This document shows positions 23,600 to 33,902 of a stretch of 64,000 bases of DNA, one piece after another. The first letter of the stretch is position 1. Each line of letters begins with the position of its first letter. Source of the stretch: Cercospora beticola (taxonomy: Eukaryota; Ascomycota; Dothideomycetes; Mycosphaerellales; Mycosphaerellaceae); contig NC_088935.1 of assembly GCF_033473495.1 (NCBI RefSeq), positions 3,534,001 to 3,598,000 on the forward strand, read 5' to 3'. The translations under genes and the position numbers were made by a program. The notes beneath the pieces are model-generated. The model was given only the letters and a program-made list of their open reading frames with translations. It was not told the DNA's origin and searched no databases.

Positions 23600-24592
23600 T
23601 CACCACTGGATGACTCGCTCAGTCTCGCCCTCTCGTGGTGGGAAGTAGGTGTTGATCAACTCCATGTAGTATGACTTGAGCGTCTGGGTATCTGGGATAC
23701 CATCACTCTTGCTGTAAAGGTCATAAGGGTTGAAAGCCTTGACGGCTTGCAACATCTTCTCGTCTTTCTCGTTCATCATCCATCGGTAGCCGCCGGCGCT
23801 GTGCCATGGGTAGAAAGAGTGGTAACGAATCATGGCAAGAGCCTCATCGGGGAGGGTGCTTTGTTCTTTGCAGATGTGGTAGAGGTATTCGTCGTGGCCC
23901 CAGCTGAGCATGACGTTGTCGAGGCCGCAGCCTGGGGTGTAGATGCCGTGCTCGGTGCTGTAGATTGGGTCTTTGCTGTCTGGGTTGCTCTCGAAGGTGC
24001 CCGGGTAGATGATGGAATCGTCGAAGCGGCAGCCTACTGGGAAGGTGTCGCCGACGACGTCCCATTGTCCTCGTGCGTCGTAGAAGAAGAGGAGCTTGCC
24101 TAGGTCGTGGATCAGACCAGTGAGTTGGAACCACTTTGGCTTTCCGTCACGGCGGATGGCCTCTGCGGATTGGAGAAGGTGCTCGATCTGGCTGAGCGAG
24201 GTGTCGGGGTCGGACTCGTCGATGAGTGTGTTGAGCTTCTCCATGGCTTGCCAGATGGTCATCTGTGCACGGGTCTTTGACTTGAAGTCATTGCGGGCCT
24301 TCAAGTTGTAGGCAACAGTCTGCTTCTCGTGTTGTTCACGGTAGAAATTCTTGACACGGTCGCAAGCTTCCTCGTATTGTCGGAACTGGGTCTTGTCCTT
24401 CTCTGCATCGAACTGGGACTTCTCGTAGATGTCCTTCTCTTCTTGGGTGGCTGTGCCGTTCTTTACTCTCATGGCAGCCTTGAGGACGTTGACCTCGTCG
24501 ATGGCGTCCGAAGTTGCCTCCAACGCAAGACCATCCTTGTGGTCGTTGAAGTTCTCTGCCACATTGGGCGTCTCAATAGCGATTGGTGCCAT
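23600..24592 (-). CDS. MIOX: myo-inositol oxygenase (EC 1.13.99.1)
   Basis: Intronless 330-aa ORF from ATG 24592. The enzyme opens myo-inositol with O2 to give D-glucuronate at a mixed-valent di-iron site. Ligand motifs are all present: the His of IEHLLQSAEAIR, the HD pair in LTGLIHDLGKLL, His in SWGHDEYLYH, His in IRYHSFYPWHS, and Asp in FNPYDLYSK. The active-site lid and substrate residues (ARNDFKSKTRAQMTIW, GDTFPVGCRFDDSIIYPGTF) are also intact, and the C-terminus VIQW is the family's normal end. An N-terminal stretch of about 60 residues precedes the catalytic fold, as in other fungal forms. It is the first enzyme of the putative inositol/glucuronate cluster. Confidence 0.95.
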   Translation of the reverse strand: MAPIAIETPNVAENFNDHKDGLALEATSDAIDEVNVLKAAMRVKNGTATQEEKDIYEKSQFDAEKDKTQFRQYEEACDRVKNFYREQHEKQTVAYNLKARNDFKSKTRAQMTIWQAMEKLNTLIDESDPDTSLSQIEHLLQSAEAIRRDGKPKWFQLTGLIHDLGKLLFFYDARGQWDVVGDTFPVGCRFDDSIIYPGTFESNPDSKDPIYSTEHGIYTPGCGLDNVMLSWGHDEYLYHICKEQSTLPDEALAMIRYHSFYPWHSAGGYRWMMNEKDEKMLQAVKAFNPYDLYSKSDGIPDTQTLKSYYMELINTYFPPREGETERVIQW

Positions 24593-25714
24593 TGTTGTAG
24601 AATTAAATCAGAACACACCAAGTCAGTTGATGTTGATGTTCTGAAGAATAGAAAGTGCAACGGATGTAAAAGTGGAAGTTGATGTGATAGAATGAGAGTC
24701 GTTCTTGCTGGTGGCGGGTCGATACTTATGGTAGATTTGCGTAGGATCTCAGGTGGCAGCGAGCATGGTTCTCCACCTGCCTTACGAAGATGCGGAGGGC
24801 AAGACGGCTTGCAAGAGCCCTCGCTGGTTGAGAGCAAGTCCCAGTCTAGCCTGAAGGCACAATCTCAGCAGGTGTCCACCTCTTACGAGCTCTTGCAGCA
24901 TGACCTGCCGCTGAGACTGCGCCAGGCCTGGCTGCCCGCGGTTCTGATGCACTAGTATGGCCATGTGGGCGAAAGCATAGGGCGAAGGCCGGAGGGGCCC
25001 ACAGAGCAAGCGTCAGCAGGAAAAATCAAACGCCTAGCGGACGCCCTCGGCGGATCCGATGATGTTCTCTTGTGGAGTTCGGAGGAGGGACTTGTGCTTG
25101 TGATAGGTCCCACGGCGCAAGAGGAGGCCCGAGAGGCTCCGTGAGGAGCGCTTGGCCACGGGATACACTTCCCAAACAGCGCTGTCGGTGACTTGAGTTT
25201 TTCCAGGACCCAGTTATTGGGCCCAGTGAGGCTTGGTGATCTCGGAGCTGGTGCAGTCGAGGTCTGAATAGGCGTGAGGTTCTTCCACGACCGCCGACAG
25301 CCGCAGATCTGCCTAACGAGAACGGTGCGCGTGATATCACAAAACTGCAGCGGCAGGCCAATGGCTGACAGCGCATACGGATGAGCTGGCGTGGCTCGAT
25401 AGCCTGCGCCGGCCTGCCTGCCCTGGGGGATCTGCTCTGGAGAAGTGAGACCCTGGAGCACCACGCAAGACCCTGAAGCAGTTCTGACTGGCGGGCGGAT
25501 TTGTTCTGTTTTGGTCATTCCGCCTAACAACGTGCTTCCACACAACAATGCTCGCAGCAATTTGCAGCGACAAGGTGATGGTGTACACACCAAGTCGACG
25601 AATCTATACATTGTACAGTACACGGTAAAATCATGTTATGATTTGACTCAAGGGCGTATAGTTCACGCATCTCTTTTCACGCCGAATGCAGCTGCCCAGC
25701 CCATACAGCTTCTC
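24593..25714. promoter_or_regulatory. MIOX upstream region, 1.12 kb
   Basis: Promoter and 5' UTR of the inositol oxygenase gene and the 3' flank of the SDR gene. A 200-codon open frame on the minus strand (about 24952-25623) has no domain features and is treated as chance. I found no CCNCCAA site here, unlike the other two promoters of the cluster. Confidence 0.5.
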
Positions 25715-26559
25715 CTACCGTCCCATCCATCCACCATCCACAGTCAGAACCTCGCCACTGACATAAGCACTCGCCCGACTTGCCAAGTATACCACACTCC
25801 CCTTGAAGTCATCAGGCGAACCCCACCTTCCCGCCGGTATACGTTCCAGAATCGACGCCGCCCGCTTCTCGTCATTGATCAAAGCCGTATTCATCTCAGT
25901 CGCGATATAGCCAGGGGCGATGGCATTCACCGTAATCCCCTGATTCGCCCACTGATTCGACAAGGCCTTAGTCAATTGCCCAACGCCGCCCTTCGAAGCT
26001 GCATAAGCCGGAACATTGATCCCGCCCTGGAAGGTCAACAGACTGGCCACATTGATGATGCTGCCTCGTCTGCCGTACTGATCCGGATCGCGAGATAGCA
26101 TATGTGCACCAACGTCTCGGCACAATGTGAAGACTGATGTGAGGTTCACTTGCAGGACTTCGTTCCAATCCTCGTCTGGGAATTGATGGGCTGGGTGACG
26201 GCGCTGGATACCGCCGCAATTGAGCAATATATCGATTTTGTGGCCGTCCTTTTCGATTTGTGGTACCAGACGCTTCAATGAATCGTTCGAGGCGAGATCA
26301 GCTGTGTAGATTTGCGCTTTCCGGCCTAGCTTTTCGATGGCTTCTTTTGTCGATTGATTTGATTCATCTCGCTGCTGAGTGTGAGCGGAAGAACAGAAAT
26401 AGTTTAAGTCCAGGACGCACAACACACCTGCACCAGAAGGACATCTGCTCCTGCCTCTGCCAGGGCAATGGCCATGGCTTGGCCAATGCCGCGCGTGCCA
26501 CCGGTCACTAACGCCGTCTTGCCATCCAGGCTGAAGAAGGATATCACTGATGCGGCCAT
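25715..26559 (-). CDS. short-chain dehydrogenase, KduD / gluconate 5-dehydrogenase-like
   Basis: Predicted 262 aa from exons 26428-26559 and 25715-26371, with a 56-bp intron (GTGTGT...ACTCAGCAG). The cofactor motif TGGTRGIG is at residues 19-26, and NCGG replaces the usual NNAG. The catalytic Ser is at about 154 (INVAS), with Tyr167 and Lys171 in AYAASKGG. The C-terminal DGGWMGR resembles 2-deoxy-D-gluconate 3-dehydrogenase (KduD) and gluconate 5-dehydrogenases. In the fungal D-glucuronate pathway described in Aspergillus niger, an SDR reduces 5-keto-D-gluconate to D-gluconate; this gene is a good candidate for that step because of its neighbours. It is head-to-head with the zinc dehydrogenase gene. 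The exact substrate is inference. Confidence 0.85.
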
Positions 26560-26849
26560 GTTGAAGCAATGCACTGCGGTACTGAATAGCAGACGCGTGC
26601 AGCATGGAACAGTCGTTGGTTATGAGACTTTGCAGCCAATGCAATTGCCGACGTGGCCTTTGGCGGGGCAAGACCAAATGCCGACCGCCGCCCCCCACCA
26701 ACGCGCAAGAGCCGTGTATTGCCTGTCGAACGACCGACGCGCCGCCGTAGATTTGTCTTGTCCTTGATATCAGGCCACGGCACGCTGTCGGCCTGTTGAA
26801 GCACATTTCTCCAAGGCAACTGAGATCCATACTGCTGACCTCTTCCACA
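26560..26849. promoter_or_regulatory. divergent promoter, SDR / zinc dehydrogenase, with CCNCCAA and CreA-type motifs
   Basis: 290 bp shared by two divergent genes. TTGGCGG (26660-26666) and CCACCAA (26695-26701) are inverted copies of CCNCCAA, the motif I recall for the uronate regulator GaaR. GCGGGG (26663-26668) and CCCCAC (26693-26698) fit the SYGGRG consensus of the carbon-repression factor CreA. These are short eye-found matches, so binding is a hypothesis. Confidence 0.45.
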
Positions 26850-28093
26850 ATGACTGCTGAGGAAATCCAAGCTTCGGTGCTTCACGCCGCCAAAGACCTC
26901 CGCGTGGTAAGTATCCTTACTACTCAGTCACCTACCCGCTCATACTTACAGATCAGGAAAAACGAGAAGTCCCAGCGCCCGAAGCAGACGAAGTACAAAT
27001 CCGCATCGCGTCCACGGGTCTCTGCGGCAGCGATCTGCACTACTACTCCCACTTCCGCAACGGCGATATCCTCGTTCGCGAACCTCTTAGTCTCGGCCAT
27101 GAATCGTCCGGAGTCATTTCTGCTGTTGGCTCCGCGGTGACGAATTTCCAGCCAGGCGATAGAGTAGCACTTGAAGTCGGACTGCCGTGCGAGAAATGTC
27201 AAAGATGTCAAGAAGGTCGCTATAACATTTGTCCAAACGTGCGGTTCAGGAGCAGTGGAAAGGCATTCCCCCATTTCCAAGGGACGTTGCAGGAAAAGAT
27301 CAATCATCCTGCGAAGTGGGTATATCGCCTACCTGACGAGCTGAGCCTGGATGTTGGAGCTTTGCTAGAGCCTCTTGGAGTGGCATTGCATGCTTTCAGG
27401 AGGAGTCTCATGCCCGCCAATGCAACCGTCATTGTTTATGGAGCAGGAGCGGTGGGTCTGCTGTGTGCAGCTGTGGCAAAATTGAAAGGAGCAGCGAAGG
27501 TGATCATTGCCGATATTGATGCCGGGCGACTGGAATTTGCGGTACAGAATGGATTCGCACACGCCAGTTATACCGTGCCCATGCGGCGAGGCAAAGATAT
27601 CGATGAGAACCTCCAAATTGCAAAAGAGACTGCCGCCGAGATAACAAAACTAGAAGATGTTGGCGAGGTGGATGTCGTGTTTGAGTGTACAGGCGTGCCG
27701 TCCTGCGTGCAAGCGGGAATTTATGTGAGTGTCGCGCTGGTACTCTTGCGTGCGGTGAAGCTAATATTGTGATAGTCAACCAAGCCCGGAGGTCGAATTA
27801 TGCTGGTGGGAATGGGACATCCTATCCAGACATTACCTTTGGGAGCTGCGGCGTTGCGTGAAGTGGACATTGTTGGTGTATTCAGATATGCCAACACATA
27901 TCAAGAGAGCATCGATATTGTGCTCCAGGCGTCCAAATCCGCAACAGGCCCAGACTTTTCGAAGCTAATCACTCATCGGTTTGCGGGGCTTGAGGAGGCC
28001 GTCAAGGCTTTCGAAATGGCAGGTAAGACGAAGGATGCGGATGGCAAGCTGGTGTTGAAGGTCATTATTGATAGTAGCCGGAATGAGTCGTGA
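26850..28093 (+). CDS. zinc-dependent MDR dehydrogenase, sorbitol / L-idonate 5-dehydrogenase-like
   Basis: Predicted 380 aa from exons 26850-26906, 26957-27724 and 27776-28093; introns are 50 and 51 bp. The catalytic zinc site is visible as Cys in STGLCGSDLHYY and the His-Glu pair in LGHESSG. The structural zinc lobe is complete (CEKCQRCQEGRYNIC). The nucleotide fold has VYGAGAVGLLCAAVAKL, and EPLGVALHAFRRS is typical of polyol dehydrogenases. Close relatives are xylitol, sorbitol and L-idonate dehydrogenases. Next to MIOX and the 5-ketogluconate-type SDR, an L-idonate 5-dehydrogenase role (L-idonate to 5-keto-D-gluconate) is the best guess; xylitol or sorbitol oxidation cannot be excluded. 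It is divergent from the SDR gene. Confidence 0.85.
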
Positions 28094-28327
28094 AGCGGGA
28101 CCTTGAGGTGGTCGACCAAATACGATTGCTCCTGGCGCATTATTGTGACTTCGTTAACTATGTATAAAAGTACAAAAGATCATACTTCATGTCATGACTG
28201 TGCATTATGTCGTCGATGCAATGATCATCCCGTCGGAACAGACCGTACCGTAGGCAACCGGGCCCATCGATATCCTGTGATAGCACTCTGATCAGCATAT
28301 GCACGAATGAGTCTCGGAGAAAGGCGC

Positions 28328-29944
28328 TCACCAGCCGCCAGTATCACAAACACTGAAAAGTCGACCATTGTCGGTACATTTCAGGCTGCCGTTAACGTCA
28401 CATGGGCCTTCAGGTCGCGCCGCAACATAGCGATCGTCTCGGTACTGTCCCACTGGAGTGCTACCTTGCTGCTCCTGAAGTGGCACAGAATTTGCATGAG
28501 GTGCAAGCATCGGCAGGCACTCCATGCCCGCAGCCACGGTGCGCTCTTGGCTCGTCAAGTAGACCCAGGTTTCGTCAGATGCGACCGTGCCATCATTGTA
28601 GTTGCAAGTCAGGAACGTTGTACGACTGGTGCCTGTGTTGGCGACCTTGAATCAGTGACCGATGCCTAGAGTCAGAGGCTTATGTGAGGATGGACTTACA
28701 TAAGAATGTGCCAGGTACGCAAGGAAGATAGAAGGCATTAGCATCTTGTGTGGCGTACGTAGGCTGAGGTGTCGAAGTGGCTCCAGTACCGGCTTGACGA
28801 CTCGATGGCATCGTACGTGTCGTCGTAAGCATAGTGCGTACTGGAGTCCCTACGGGTATCGTGACGGTGATCGTAGTCTCACAATCAGCTGTAACGGTCA
28901 CTGTGCGTATGTCTGAGGCCACGACTTTTTTGGGCGCATCGAGGAGAGTCGCAGCAGCAGTAATGGACGCAGATCGAACGACCAAGCTAGTCTCGGTGGC
29001 GCTGTCTCCCAGCGGTTCTTCAGATGTGACTGCAGCTTGGGTTGGCTCTGGAGCAGTGGTGGGTGCGTCGATATAATCCGGAGCCTCGTTCGCAATCTGA
29101 TCGGATTCAGAAGTGGGTGAGCTATCACTACCTGGTGGCAAGGTACTATCCCCCAAGTCCTTATATGTCATGCCGTACGGAGCTGGCCAGTCACACGTTC
29201 CTGAGGTAGCAACGCTTGAGGCACTGTGTCCAGCATCGTATACGACATCAGGGCCCGGATTTGGGTACACAGGATCATTCCTCTCCGTAGTGGCACAGCC
29301 ATTGACGCCCTCAAGATTGGCCTTCCAGATGAAGGGTAGGCTTTCAAACGTCTTGAAGCTCTGCCTTTTTCTGCGTTGACTTGCACTAGGACTGATGGTA
29401 ATTTGGGCACAATTCTGGTACATTTCGCGATTGCCCGCGTGATTTTGCCAAGACCATGATAGGAGAGCATCACCTTCCGGCACAAAGGAGGGAATAGTGA
29501 AGTCGTATGTTGACGCCAGTGGACATCCGCCAATGATGCTTTTGATGACGCGAAATGTAGCTCCATTGTCGTAGCTGAGAGATATTTGACAGGAGCCACC
29601 ACCCTGCTGGAGGATTAGTCTGCAACTCAGCAGGTACTTCAATCTGTTGCATGACCTACGTGCATCGCCGTCCCAGCCAATGTTAGATTATATGTCGAGC
29701 CAGCAACATATGTGACCACTGGAACGAAAGGTCGATCATTCTGATAGCCCTTGCACGGGAAGTTGGAGCCATCGGCCGACAAGGGCGATGTCATGCTGTA
29801 GTCAATGGCCGTGTAATCATTAGCCGGGTTAAACTTGGAGTGTAAGGCATATGGCCAGCTCATTTCCATATGAGCGACTACCGCGGTGGACCAGAGGAGA
29901 ACAAAGGCCCGCATTGCACGCCCCGAGCAACGAAGACAAGCCAT
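28328..29944 (-). CDS. secreted AA11-like lytic polysaccharide monooxygenase
   Basis: Predicted 497 aa from exons 29660-29944, 28700-29603 and 28328-28632. A signal peptide (RAFVLLWSTAVVA) is followed directly by HMEMSWPYAL, so cleavage would expose His1, the copper ligand of LPMOs. The second ligand is in AMHGGGSC, a motif rebuilt exactly by the 56-bp intron. Conserved SPLSADGSNFPCKGYQ and LLSWSWQNHAGNREMYQNCA follow. A Ser/Thr-rich linker leads to two short Cys modules: LPCVPGTFLCTSRTTFLTC, rebuilt by the second intron, and a C-terminal part ending CDTGGW that resembles the X278-type tails of AA11 proteins. AA11 enzymes oxidise chitin. A second possible start is at 29914. Its tie to the inositol genes, if any, is unclear. 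Confidence 0.8.
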
Positions 29945-30409
29945 GGTTGAAGAGAAGTGATGCGCGGCGACAGGCAGTGGACGGCGCCATGTCGCGACTT
30001 TTGAGCAGATGAAACGCCGTCCCATAGAACGATGTGCCAGGCATGTCTGACTATCGTGTGGCTAGCGGGAGGGTGTAGCGGTGCTGGCTGTCCCGGGCGA
30101 AGATACATTCTTCGCGTGAAGCGCGTTGGCACATTCCGCCGCTTCCATTGTGCTTCTTACCCGCCGACACATGACTCGCAGGACGAGTAGGCAGTGGAGG
30201 TCTCCAGACGGTGGCTCCGGTGTGATCTTGAGGTCGGCAGTACGATGGCGGTGCTGGGAGGAAGGAGTGGAAGAGGGCGGAGTGGAAGGCTGAAGGGGGC
30301 GGACGCGTAATCTTGGCAACGACTTCACGCTTCCAGACACGTCCGCACGAGCTCCTCGGCCTACACTCCAGCCTCCATCCCCCACAATCCCTCCATTTCA
30401 GCACCAGCC
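29945..30409. promoter_or_regulatory. divergent region, AA11-like / MHF1
   Basis: 465 bp between divergent ATGs, holding both promoters. No clear motif or repeat was found. Confidence 0.5.
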
Positions 30410-30724
30410 ATGGCTACACAACCACACAGCGACGAGGAGAGGCTCAAGGCAGCGCTGTGGCATTCGGTTGGCAAGATCGTTGACGCCATTGCCGTAGAGC
30501 AAAGTCCAAGCGTCAATGCCGCGCCAACGTTTATAGCTGGCATGACCGAGATGCTTGCGGCCAGGATCACGACCATTTCCGCGGATCTCGAGACGTTTTC
30601 TCGGCATGCTGGACGCTCTGTCATCAACGAGGATGATGCGATGTTGCTTGCACGCCACAACGATGGCCTGAAAAGCGTCCTTCGACACAAAGCTGAGAAA
30701 GAACGAAAGAGCGAAAATCGGTGA
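30410..30724 (+). CDS. MHF1: CENP-S / MHF1 histone-fold protein
   Basis: Intronless 104-aa ORF starting at ATG 30410. The sequence has the CENP-S histone-fold pattern: helix LKAALWHSVGKIVDAIA, then PTFIAGMTEMLAARITTISA and DLETFSRHAGRSVINEDD (the HAGR-x-I segment is highly diagnostic), then AMLLARHNDGLKSVL. MHF1/CENP-S pairs with MHF2/CENP-X. The tetramer binds branched DNA with the Fanconi helicase (Mph1/FANCM) and is part of the constitutive centromere complex. The length of about 100 aa is normal for fungi. It sits inside the sugar-acid gene block but is surely unrelated in function. The short basic tail (HKAEKERKSENR) is a possible DNA-contact or nuclear signal. Confidence 0.87.
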   Translation: MATQPHSDEERLKAALWHSVGKIVDAIAVEQSPSVNAAPTFIAGMTEMLAARITTISADLETFSRHAGRSVINEDDAMLLARHNDGLKSVLRHKAEKERKSENR

Positions 30725-30834
30725 AGGAGGTTGGAAACGATTTGCTGAGCGACTCTATCTCCTGCACGAGTGACTACTCTGCAAAGATGCTCGGCGATCT
30801 ATGATGAATCTCTAACACGCACCTATCCGACAAC

Positions 30835-31987
30835 TTATTGCTTGTCTGGGAATCCGAGGTTGACACCAAACTCTGGATACACGAATCTTGTGAGTCCCTT
30901 CTTCTTGTGGATTTCCTCGAGCGATGCAACGTCTTCAGAGCTCAGTTGCACAGTCTTCAGGTTCTCCTCTATCCGCTGTGGCGTCACGGACTTGGGCAGC
31001 ACCACATGACCTCTGCTGACCTGATAAGAGATCAAGATCGTTCCTGCTCCGACGTTGTGCTTCTTCGCAAGCTCTTGCACGCCCTCCTCCTTGAAGAGCG
31101 GGCTGCCTGTGCTACCCAATGGCGAGTAGGCCTCGACCAGGATGCCCTTCTCTTTACAGAATTCGCTGATCTCTGATTGTGGGAGGTATGGGTGGTTTTC
31201 CTGCAGAGATCTTGCGTTAGCATGCTGGGTGAGGAGACGCGGCGGTTTCGGGCATGGAACGTACGATCTGGTTCGCCGCAGGCACGACTTCGGCCTCTTT
31301 AAGGAGCTCCTCTAGGAATGGCACCGAGTACTGTCGCTCATTAGCAATGGGAGCATTCGCAGCAGAGGCTTCGGACTCAGCTTACATTCGAAACACCGAT
31401 GGCCTTGACTTTGCCAGTCTTCAGCAGCTTCTCCATGCTCTTCCACGTGGAAACGTGTGACCATTCTCGATCGAGGTCGCGAGAGCCTGCACGCCATGTA
31501 ATCAGCTGGCTGCAATTGCATGGTCCTCACGACAAGTCTTACCATCTTCAAGCTTGGGGAACAAGGGGTGGTTGCCGTTTGCATTCATAGGTACTGGCCA
31601 GTGGACCAGGTAGAGATCCAGGTAATCGAGACCGAGGCGCTTGAGACCTTCGTCAAGGCACTCCTCAGGCTTTCGGTGGTATGTACACCACAGCTTTGAT
31701 GTGACGAAGACATCCTCTCTCTTGATCCCGGAGTCGAAAGCCTCTTTCAGCCCCTCTCCCACTTCGTTCTCGTTTCCATACACGAAAGCTGCGTCAATGT
31801 GGCGGTAGCCCGACTTGAGGGCATGTGCAACAGCGGCCTTGACCTGTCCCGGGTCTCCACAACGGCGTTTTATTAGAATAACAATTCACGACGAGATGTA
31901 GCGGGCTCAAAACTGACCAGATTGCCATGTTCCCAGGCCTACTGCTGGAATCTTTGCGCCAGTGTTGAGAGTGAACGTGGATGCCAT
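30835..31987 (-). CDS. aldo-keto reductase (candidate glucuronate/uronate reductase), five exons
   Basis: Predicted 304 aa. Exons: 31918-31987, 31543-31854, 31386-31486, 31265-31330, 30835-31200. All introns are GT-AG and each junction restores family motifs. The catalytic tetrad is complete: Asp44 and Tyr49 in [11 protein letters not shown], Lys77 in VTSKLW, His108 in YLVHWPVP. The N-terminus is the usual [11 protein letters not shown], and cofactor-loop features [14 protein letters not shown] suggest NADPH use. The same AKR class includes fungal uronate reductases (GAR1/GaaA, D-galacturonate or D-glucuronate to the L-aldonate), glycerol dehydrogenases and xylose reductases. Beside MIOX, reduction of D-glucuronate to L-gulonate is the attractive role. 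It is head-to-head with the inositol dehydrogenase gene. Confidence 0.85.
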
Positions 31988-32831
31988 GATTTTGAGAATG
32001 TGTATGTCAATGTGTACAGCTTGTTGACGAGAAGTGGACTGGTTTTGCACAGAGCAGCGTGACGCGAGCACAATTGTCTTCGGGCGTGATTACAACGAGC
32101 TCATCCCACTCTGCTGGCAGCATTCGCCGAGGGCGAAATGTCGGCATTTGAAAATATGTCATTCCACAATTGGGGCAGAGGCGGCAGCACCACAGAAACT
32201 CGGCTCCTGGGGGTCCAAGAGCCGAGTTTACGTCCATTTTGTGACCGAACTCTCATCGCGACCTGGGTCAGACTTTACATCTTTTAGCTTCACGAGACAC
32301 AGCGCTCGAGGTGTGTTGCACAAGGCAGAGATACGAGCAGCGGAGCAAATTACCACGTTCATGCAGTGTGGAAGGAATTGTGAGTTTCTGTTGTGCCTTC
32401 TAGCGGGGTGATCAGCAGGGACAAGCAGCTCGCGCAGGCACACGTAATGACGTTTCGGACTCTGCCTGCAGCACCAGCAACGGCCTTACCCCTTTGGGTC
32501 ATTCCGCCTTCCGCTGGGCGGCAGCGGAGCCTCGTGCATGCGAGTTCGTCTGGCGGTGGAGGAGCGGGTGGAGTTGCTACCGACACCAACTTGTTGCGCT
32601 GCGCGTTGTTGGTGATGTTTTCCGCGCGCCAACGAACACACTGTTGGTGTCGACTGTCTCGCGCAAGTTACAAAATTCGGTGAGGTCCACCAAGGGCAAT
32701 AGCATCATCCCTCAGGACAATCTATCATCTTCTCTTGCACTCTTCCTCGATTGCTGTTCTTTCCAGAAGATTGAATTTCACAGTTCGAAGCAGCAGCCAC
32801 CACCAAAATCTCCCCCTCCCCCTCCTTCACT
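31988..32831. promoter_or_regulatory. divergent promoter, aldo-keto reductase / inositol dehydrogenase
   Basis: 844 bp shared by two divergent genes of the cluster. It holds a perfect 11-bp inverted repeat (32196-32229), CCNCCAA matches at 32687-32693 and 32800-32806, and a CreA-type GCGGGG at 32403-32408. A CT-rich stretch (about 32728-32755) precedes the inositol dehydrogenase ATG. Confidence 0.5.
32196..32229. repeat. perfect 11-bp inverted repeat in the divergent promoter
   Basis: AAACTCGGCTC (32196-32206) and GAGCCGAGTTT (32219-32229) are exact reverse complements around a 12-nt spacer. The arms place CGG (32201-32203) and CCG (32222-32224) as inverted triplets, the half-sites used by Zn2Cys6 dimers. 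Hairpin or operator function is a hypothesis. Confidence 0.8.
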
Positions 32832-33902
32832 ATGGTCCGCAAGCTGCAGGTCGGCGTGTCCGGTCTTGGACGAATGGGCGCCCGACACGCTCTGCACTTT
32901 CTCGAACGCACACCTCGAGCAGACCTCGTGGCTGCCTTTGACCCGGATGAGAAAGCACTCGCATGGGCGAAGGAGCGACTCGCACCCTTCGGTACTAAGC
33001 TCTACAACGACTATGAGGAGTTCTTGAAGCACCCAGGCCTGGAAGCCGTCGTGGTAGCGGGCATCACCACACAACATGCCGCGCAGGCGGTGCGTGCCAT
33101 TGAGGCCGACAAGCATGTGCTGTGCGAGAAACCGCTGTCAACGAGCATCGAGGTCTGCGAGAATGTCTTGAAAGCCGCTCAGGCCAAGCCTCATTTGACT
33201 GTCATGTGCGGTTTCTCGCGCCGCTTCGATGCCAGCTACCGAGATGCTGCTCGCCGTGTGCAGAATGGAGACATTGGCCGGCCGTCCATACTCCGATCGC
33301 AGACATGCGACAAGCATCGCGACGACGACTACTTCGTACAGTATGCCAAGTTCAGCGGCGGAATCTTCGTCGACGCCAACATCCACGACATCGACCTTGC
33401 CCTTTGGTACTTCGGCCAGGACAGCGTAGTGAAGAGCGTCACCGCCGCTGGCATCAACGCACGCCTCACCGAGCTGGAGAAGTACCAAGATGTCGACAAC
33501 GGCATCGGTATCGTCGAGTTCTACGGCGGCAAGATTGCCTACTTCTACGCCTCACGCATGATGGCTGCAGGACAGGAGGACACCACCGAGATTATTGGCA
33601 CACACGGCAAAATTGTCGTCAATGGCAATCCTCAGCAAAACCTAGTCTCTCTGCACGAGAGTACGGGTATCCGCAAGGACGTTCCCCAGACCTACTACGA
33701 CCGCTTCGAACACGCCTTCGTCACCGAATCGAACGAGTTCACAGAATGCGTTCTGGACGGCACGAAGCCACCATTCGAGCTGGCAGGTGCCGTTGCTGCT
33801 GTGAAGATTGCTAGCGCGTTGCAAAAGAGCTTGGTCACTGGAAAGAAGATTGAATACAGCGAATCTGGCGAGGAGATTGTCTCAGAGAAGGCACGTCTCT
33901 AG
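32832..33902 (+). CDS. Gfo/Idh/MocA oxidoreductase, inositol 2-dehydrogenase-like
   Basis: Intronless 356-aa ORF from ATG 32832. The Rossmann motif is GVSGLGRMGARH at residues 8-19. The family's catalytic lysine is in HVLCEKPLS, and the C-terminal domain has FSGGIFVDANIHDIDLALW, giving the Asp/His pair of inositol dehydrogenases (IolG type). Such enzymes oxidise myo-, scyllo- or chiro-inositol to inosose with NAD, or run in reverse. No other bacterial iol-type gene (iolE, iolD, iolB, iolC) is visible. A likely role beside MIOX is interconversion of inositol isomers through inosose, or oxidation of a related sugar. Codon use and GC content look like the neighbours, so recent transfer is not evident. 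Confidence 0.88.
   Translation: MVRKLQVGVSGLGRMGARHALHFLERTPRADLVAAFDPDEKALAWAKERLAPFGTKLYNDYEEFLKHPGLEAVVVAGITTQHAAQAVRAIEADKHVLCEKPLSTSIEVCENVLKAAQAKPHLTVMCGFSRRFDASYRDAARRVQNGDIGRPSILRSQTCDKHRDDDYFVQYAKFSGGIFVDANIHDIDLALWYFGQDSVVKSVTAAGINARLTELEKYQDVDNGIGIVEFYGGKIAYFYASRMMAAGQEDTTEIIGTHGKIVVNGNPQQNLVSLHESTGIRKDVPQTYYDRFEHAFVTESNEFTECVLDGTKPPFELAGAVAAVKIASALQKSLVTGKKIEYSESGEEIVSEKARL

Follow-up and report, generated by a model that had tools for sequence, protein, structure and literature searches.

Gene Content of the Locus

The window analysed here, that is, the whole stretch of 64,000 nucleotides at C1:3534001-3598000 of the Cercospora beticola genome (36.07 Mb, 10 contigs), carries the genes of five enzymes that may bear on the use of inositol: a myo-inositol oxygenase (MIOX), a short-chain dehydrogenase/reductase (SDR), a zinc-dependent medium-chain dehydrogenase/reductase (MDR), an aldo-keto reductase (AKR), and an IolG-like oxidoreductase of the Gfo/Idh/MocA family (IDH). 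An earlier note on this DNA had read all five as a single cluster for the breakdown of inositol and glucuronate, and the question is which of them form a unit, the trio MIOX-SDR-MDR in particular. All gene models are intact: MIOX and IDH are intronless, and SDR, MDR, and AKR have one, two, and four introns, respectively (Table 1). All five proteins exceed the curated cut-off of their own Pfam family (MIOX with 416.7 bits, the AKR with 166 bits for Aldo_ket_red, the MDR with ADH_N and ADH_zinc_N, the IDH with GFO_IDH_MocA), and MDR, IDH, AKR, and SDR all score below NCBIfam cut-offs. The intact models and the Pfam matches bear out the five enzymes of the earlier note, and its two head-to-head pairs are the divergent genes SDR/MDR and AKR/IDH.

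Table 1. Genes and shared upstream regions at the locus (positions in the window)
Feature	Position	Strand	Remarks
MIOX (myo-inositol oxygenase)	23600..24592	-	330 aa, single exon; Pfam MIOX
KduD-type SDR, GluF/KgrA family	25715..26559	-	262 aa, intron 26372-26427; NCBIfam KduD, tree
Shared SDR/MDR upstream region	26560..26849	.	290 bp, from gene models
Zinc MDR, sorbitol-dehydrogenase-like, GluE/IddA candidate	26850..28093	+	380 aa, introns 26907-26956 and 27725-27775
AA11-type lytic polysaccharide monooxygenase	28330..29945 (ends approximate)	-	Between the pairs; outside the proposed pathway
CENP-S gene	30410..30724	+	Pfam CENP-S 86.5 bits; between the pairs; outside the proposed pathway
Aldo-keto reductase (AKR)	30835..31987	-	304 aa, five exons; possible member, role unproven
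Shared AKR/IDH upstream region	31988..32831	.	844 bp, from gene models
Gfo/Idh/MocA oxidoreductase, IolG-like (IDH)	32832..33902	+	356 aa, single exon; possible member, role unproven

The Pfam match of MIOX spans positions 1-244 of a model of 249 positions and covers the full domain, and the mouse MIOX chain aligns with the protein at 254 bits. The diiron ligands and substrate residues, in the list that we take to hold for mouse MIOX, are identical at 10 of 10 positions of the alignment. Judged by this alignment, the active site appears intact, and the protein would have the function of its family, the conversion of inositol to D-glucuronate. It is the sole MIOX match in the genome. Pattern matches in bacterial (16) and viral (3) contigs contained no confirmed relative.

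A Conserved Neighbourhood

Within the genome, at least 32 MDR, 103 SDR, 15 AKR, and nine Gfo/Idh loci were counted after merging, all of these being lower bounds. The four oxidoreductase families come together in a single 11-kb stretch genome-wide, the one in the window, and in 0 of 20,000 random placements, a figure that should not be pushed because the families were picked after seeing the window. A lone MDR-SDR pair means little, since such pairs, at most 3 kb apart, recur at two further sites of the genome. Conservation among relatives is a better test than chance co-location.

The protein searches with MDR, SDR, and MIOX gave the best 120 relatives of each (representatives of 90% clusters), and locus numbers that bear on order were available for 39, 47, and 20 of these rows, respectively; they served as a proxy for gene order. 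Among the relatives listed, the locus numbers of MDR and SDR are consecutive in all 14 genomes where both are tagged. One of the genera concerned, Oleoguttula, has a second SDR elsewhere besides the copy adjacent to MDR. MIOX differs from MDR by 1, 2, 2, 2, 2, and 4 tags in six genomes and from SDR by 1, 1, 5, and 5 tags in four, two genomes entering both counts, and it lies at most five tags from MDR and/or SDR in eight of eight distinct genomes. In Meristemomyces, the three genes stand in a row (tags 6218-6219-6220). The genomes linking MIOX include Meristemomyces, Neodothiora, Recurvomyces, Bathelium, and Bogoriella, to which Trapelia coarctata, presumably a Lecanoromycete, adds a case of MIOX with SDR.

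Contigs of identical size across the three sets of relatives point the same way: there are 33 for MDR/SDR, 16 for MDR/MIOX, nine for SDR/MIOX, and seven for all three. The informative ones are short, and among those common to the trio they measure 125,934, 146,709, and 280,913 bases. One of the 16 values for MDR/MIOX (1,351 bases) is probably a coincidence. In conclusion, several Dothideomycetes keep MIOX, SDR, and MDR close together, and MIOX-SDR is found in Trapelia as well, which suggests an inherited unit for the breakdown of inositol. The synteny that the earlier note had proposed to look for is found for three of its five genes, MIOX, SDR, and MDR, in the genomes with usable tags.

The same searches returned fungal-looking MDR, SDR, and MIOX proteins that the database assigns to Quercus suber and Carpinus fangiana, which probably reflect fungal contamination of plant assemblies.

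The SDR and MDR Genes

The best NCBIfam model for the SDR is KduD, with 314.9 bits (below the cut-off of 338.85). The gene has two adjacent possible acceptor sites, and the choice giving 262 aa fits the length of the C. berteroae protein and the relatives reading LLVQR (e.g., P0175). A tree was made of 32 chosen relatives, the window protein, and its next paralogue in C. beticola (C5:296744-297708, 44-62% identity by piece). In this tree, the window SDR falls within one tight family alongside proteins of Eurotiales and apart from its own paralogue. The best model agrees with the KduD-like label given earlier. Within the family, the Eurotiales proteins group with second copies from Hortaea and Oleoguttula (support 0.98), so the relation of the window SDR to the Eurotiales protein may be one of co-orthology rather than of strict correspondence. 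The extra copies in Hortaea and Oleoguttula (P0212, P0231, P0236, and P0238, the last outside the tree) would result from an old duplication or from transfer.

The GluF protein of Aspergillus niger has 265 aa and was formerly annotated as a 2-deoxy-D-gluconate 3-dehydrogenase. Translation of its published primers and guide shows that it begins with MSAAVAS, contains ASLFSL, and finishes with GWMGR. The comparison with GluF covers these primer-encoded ends and the length; the ends fit the SDR family, where an MGR terminus is found in 115 of the 120 best listed relatives. The window SDR is thus best described as a protein of the GluF/KgrA family, and its predicted activity, going by family, is the NADPH-dependent reduction of 5-keto-D-gluconate.

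The MDR resembles human sorbitol dehydrogenase (42% identity), a ketose reductase (41%), the L-arabinitol dehydrogenase of Neurospora crassa (38%), and xylitol dehydrogenase (36%) among enzymes of solved structure. It is 100% identical to a C. beticola protein filed as L-arabinitol 4-dehydrogenase and also to a protein of C. kikuchii. The database name can be rejected, as the gene at C5:2426581 has 72% identity with the N. crassa arabinitol enzyme against the 38% of the MDR; that function better fits C5:2426581, and the label of the C. beticola MDR should be corrected. A role as xylitol dehydrogenase is likewise rejected in favour of C5:3704777 (50% against 36%), an assignment that is less firm in that this protein scores 294 bits with the ketose reductase and 285 bits with the xylitol enzyme. 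Because the genome has separate genes of the arabinitol and xylitol types, the MDR looks like a third subfamily.

As a candidate, the MDR best fits the L-idonate 5-dehydrogenase GluE of A. niger, a protein reported to show little similarity to the other enzymes characterised for this activity (PMC5306355). The primer-encoded end of GluE, ESGDD, resembles tails of homologues of the MDR such as LETGEDDK (P0101), a slight likeness between short tails. GluE was renamed IddA in a 2026 paper, where its N. crassa orthologue is NCU01905 (PMC13158570). The earlier label, sorbitol/L-idonate type, agrees with a protein that is sorbitol-dehydrogenase-like and a GluE candidate; the L-idonate half of the label is indirect.

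The Outer Pair and the Surroundings

The best NCBIfam model for the AKR is DkgA, with 229.5 bits for a cut-off of 425. It was compared with Trichoderma reesei GAR1 and with GLD1, the two probes being approximate sequences. The GAR1 probe matches C2:4206056 at 74% over 315 residues and the window AKR at 43%; for the GLD1 probe, the best matches are genes on C4 and C9, and the identity to the window AKR at the protein level is 49%. A seriously faulty probe would hardly reach 74% with a real gene, and therefore the AKR is not of the Gar1 type. The candidate of an orthologous Gar1-type hexuronate reductase is ruled out on this approximate probe, and the earlier proposal that the AKR is the glucuronate reductase is not supported. 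In N. crassa, the number of NCU01905 is directly followed by that of gcy-2 (NCU01906), an AKR predicted to be a hexuronate reductase (PMC13158570), so a reductase beside this type of MDR is not unheard of.

The IDH reaches 259.2 bits with the NCBIfam model of IolG (inositol 2-dehydrogenase) and misses its cut-off of 355. Its best solved relatives are inositol dehydrogenases, with which the EKP and D-x3-H residues align; we take these residues to be catalytic in that group. A paralogue with 65% identity lies at C1:5014133, where a Zn2Cys6 regulator, a sugar transporter, and an arabinofuranosidase-like open reading frame (ORF) are its neighbours (C1:5010700-5018700). Since this paralogue sits among arabinose-type genes, the IDH family need not act on inositol in this fungus. 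AKR and IDH are possible additions to the trio, as yet unproven.

The two divergent pairs are separated by a lytic polysaccharide monooxygenase, identified through matches to the solved structures 7p3u and 4mah (AA11), a single ORF piece of it having no Pfam match, and by the CENP-S gene, so that the block is interrupted. On the outside, the block is flanked by genes for a BET bromodomain protein and for leucyl-tRNA synthetase, and the remaining ORFs scanned in the window include several housekeeping genes and others without a Pfam match. There is no match to a 2-hydroxyacid dehydrogenase anywhere in the window and none to transporter families among the selected ORFs that were scanned, and no Zn2Cys6 regulator was found closer than one that begins some 10 kb past the last gene of the block. 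As far as they were covered, the absences listed in the earlier note agree with this. The single gluconokinase found in the genome lies outside the window, at C1:1898228.

Elsewhere in the genome, C1:345909-348321 holds another divergent pair of MDR and SDR genes, which belong to other subfamilies, and C5:2421994-2427504 holds a second MDR-Gfo/Idh neighbourhood, with a Gfo/Idh match flanked by two MDR genes of the arabinitol-dehydrogenase type. At C5:1972323-1974158, an open frame of 670 codons joins an aldolase of the DHDPS family to an aldo-keto reductase; it is perhaps a fusion of consecutive steps of the galacturonate pathway, with putative functions as aldolase and L-glyceraldehyde reductase.

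Tails of the Peroxisomal Type

Among the best 120 listed relatives of the MDR, 42 end in [SAC][KRH][LM], where composition alone predicts about 0.3. The tails are ARL (17), SKL (16), SRL (5), AKL (3), and AHL (1), and the 42 proteins are kin rather than independent events. Tails resembling the type 1 peroxisomal targeting signal (PTS1) are found in 0 of the 120 best listed relatives of the SDR and in 0 of the 120 of MIOX. The Cercospora MDR itself ends in -NES. The window IDH and its 65% paralogue end in -ARL, which is PTS1-like, and a 41% paralogue does not. These tails would be consistent with a peroxisomal localisation of the proteins that carry them. The peroxisomal inositol dehydrogenase of Entamoeba is also an enzyme of Gfo/Idh type with a PTS1-type end (PMC8629394); the fungal IDH is likened to it by family and tail.

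A Proposed Route and Its Alternatives

MIOX-SDR-MDR (23600-28093) is probably a conserved chromosomal module for the use of myo-inositol via D-glucuronate. MIOX would convert myo-inositol to D-glucuronate, which would be brought to L-idonate by enzymes unlinked to the locus or not yet assigned. The MDR would then oxidise L-idonate to 5-keto-D-gluconate (the step of GluE/IddA), the SDR would reduce this to D-gluconate (the step of GluF/KgrA), and the unlinked gluconokinase would pass D-gluconate to the pentose phosphate pathway. The gene content, the family of the SDR, the distinctness of the MDR, and the neighbourhood by locus numbers are observed directly; we infer the substrates, the direction of the reactions, and the co-regulation of the trio. 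The use of glucuronate by A. niger needs both gluE and gluF (PMC5306355, PMC5814732).

Several points weigh against this proposal. The locus is without genes for the intermediate steps from glucuronate to L-idonate. The assignment of the MDR to GluE is indirect; the NCBIfam model of L-idonate 5-dehydrogenase, a bacterial one, gives the MDR 185.5 bits for a cut-off of 469, and the model of L-threonine dehydrogenase scores about the same (182.6). Loss of NCU01905 (sodh-1) in N. crassa slows growth on L-arabinose and D-galacturonate, which suggests wider roles of IddA (PMC13158570). The relatives were compared by tags, a proxy for gene order, and the SDR and MIOX of Rhizodiscina, as well as the MDR and MIOX of Lepidopterella and Glonium, are on contigs of different sizes, which may be an effect of draft assemblies. 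Finally, no word of nine or more bases is common to the three upstream regions (those of MIOX, SDR/MDR, and AKR/IDH), and the words shared by pairs of them are within chance: the MIOX and AKR/IDH regions share a 13-mer, and at 12 bases 417 of 3000 pairs of random stretches share a word; the 11-mer of SDR/MDR and AKR/IDH is equalled by 383 of 3000 random pairs. A motif of GaaR type is absent from all three regions.

The heptamer CCACCAA occurs once in 26560-26849, twice in 31988-32831, and 10 times in the window on both strands; it was picked post hoc and is a weak lead.

It is possible, though rather unlikely, that all five genes make up one inositol/glucuronate cluster, in which the substrate of the AKR may be glucuronate or 2-keto-L-gulonate and other inositol isomers may enter through the IDH. 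The unique co-location of the four oxidoreductase families, the divergent arrangement of AKR and IDH, the resemblance of the latter to inositol dehydrogenases, and the consecutive NCU01905 and gcy-2 of N. crassa (PMC13158570) speak for it, but the AKR is not of the Gar1 type by the approximate probe, two unrelated genes lie in between, and the IDH stays below the IolG cut-off and has its paralogue among arabinose-type genes. Of the single cluster read earlier, the conserved MIOX-SDR-MDR unit is supported (14/14 and 8/8 genomes); the AKR as its obvious glucuronate reductase, with 43% identity to the GAR1 probe, is not.

Somewhat less probable still is that SDR and MDR are a general pair for polyols or sugar acids (pentoses, galacturonate, sorbitol), with MIOX a conserved neighbour that shares no pathway with them. 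The sodh-1 phenotype on L-arabinose and D-galacturonate and the reported failure of N. crassa to grow on glucuronate (PMC13158570) would fit such a pair, as would the MDR being about as close to sorbitol dehydrogenases as to any solved enzyme and the MDR-SDR pairs at two other genome sites. Yet the linkage to MIOX recurs in every genome with usable tags (8/8), and in A. niger GluE and GluF act downstream of the product of MIOX. An oxidation of the ring of bacterial type, begun by the IDH in the part of IolG and continued by the MDR as a dehydrogenase like IolM, is very improbable: the IDH is IolG-like and the MDR matches the IolM model, but with 155 bits, far under the cut-off of 450 and lower than with the L-idonate 5-dehydrogenase model, itself below its cut-off, and in a comparison that covered the trio the conserved neighbour is MIOX.

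Comparison with Known Systems

The proposed module of MIOX, SDR, and MDR would share its late steps with the glucuronate pathway of A. niger, which consists of GaaA, GluC/GurA, GluD/GurB, GluE/IddA, and GluF/KgrA. In both fungi, the gene of GluE type, a candidate in C. beticola, belongs to a divergent pair, with a shared promoter of 455 bp between gluD and gluE in A. niger (PMC5306355) and 290 bp in the window. Unlike in A. niger, its partner here is the GluF-type SDR, MIOX adjoins, and the window has no match to a 2-hydroxyacid dehydrogenase. In Cryptococcus neoformans, too, MIOX opens the inositol ring, and a triple MIO mutant fails to grow on inositol as sole carbon source (PMC8561382); that fungus has three MIO genes, against a single MIOX match in C. 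beticola. A linked GluE/GluF pair is not described in the available text of that account (PMC8561382).

Related work covers the A. niger pathway (PMC4870679), hexuronate use in general, in a review (PMC6353982), pectin in N. crassa (PMC5469009), and the MIO genes of Cryptococcus (PMC2584100). A MIOX-linked GluE/GluF module is announced in none of the titles and abstract openings of the open-licence literature searched (subscription literature being mostly outside it), and the literature search listing for Cercospora beticola and inositol held nothing relevant. What is new is the arrangement, whereas the enzymes and most of the pathway had been described before.

The A. niger route was worked out on free glucuronate, and its step from L-gulonate to 2-keto-L-gulonate is still without a gene (PMC5814732, PMC13158570). 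One may speculate, as a doubtful extension, that the GluE-GluF arm of Dothideomycetes, and perhaps of Lecanoromycetes, serves primarily the salvage of inositol, would be partly peroxisomal where the GluE-like protein ends in -SKL or -ARL, and would have AKR and IDH supply the missing middle, including that step.

That the linkage with MIOX is conserved hints at inositol as a natural source of the substrate and leaves a short list of candidate genes. N. crassa is reported to carry predicted orthologues of nearly all genes of the glucuronate pathway (PMC13158570), and the link to MIOX might bear on why this fungus, with a near-complete predicted pathway, fails to grow on glucuronate.

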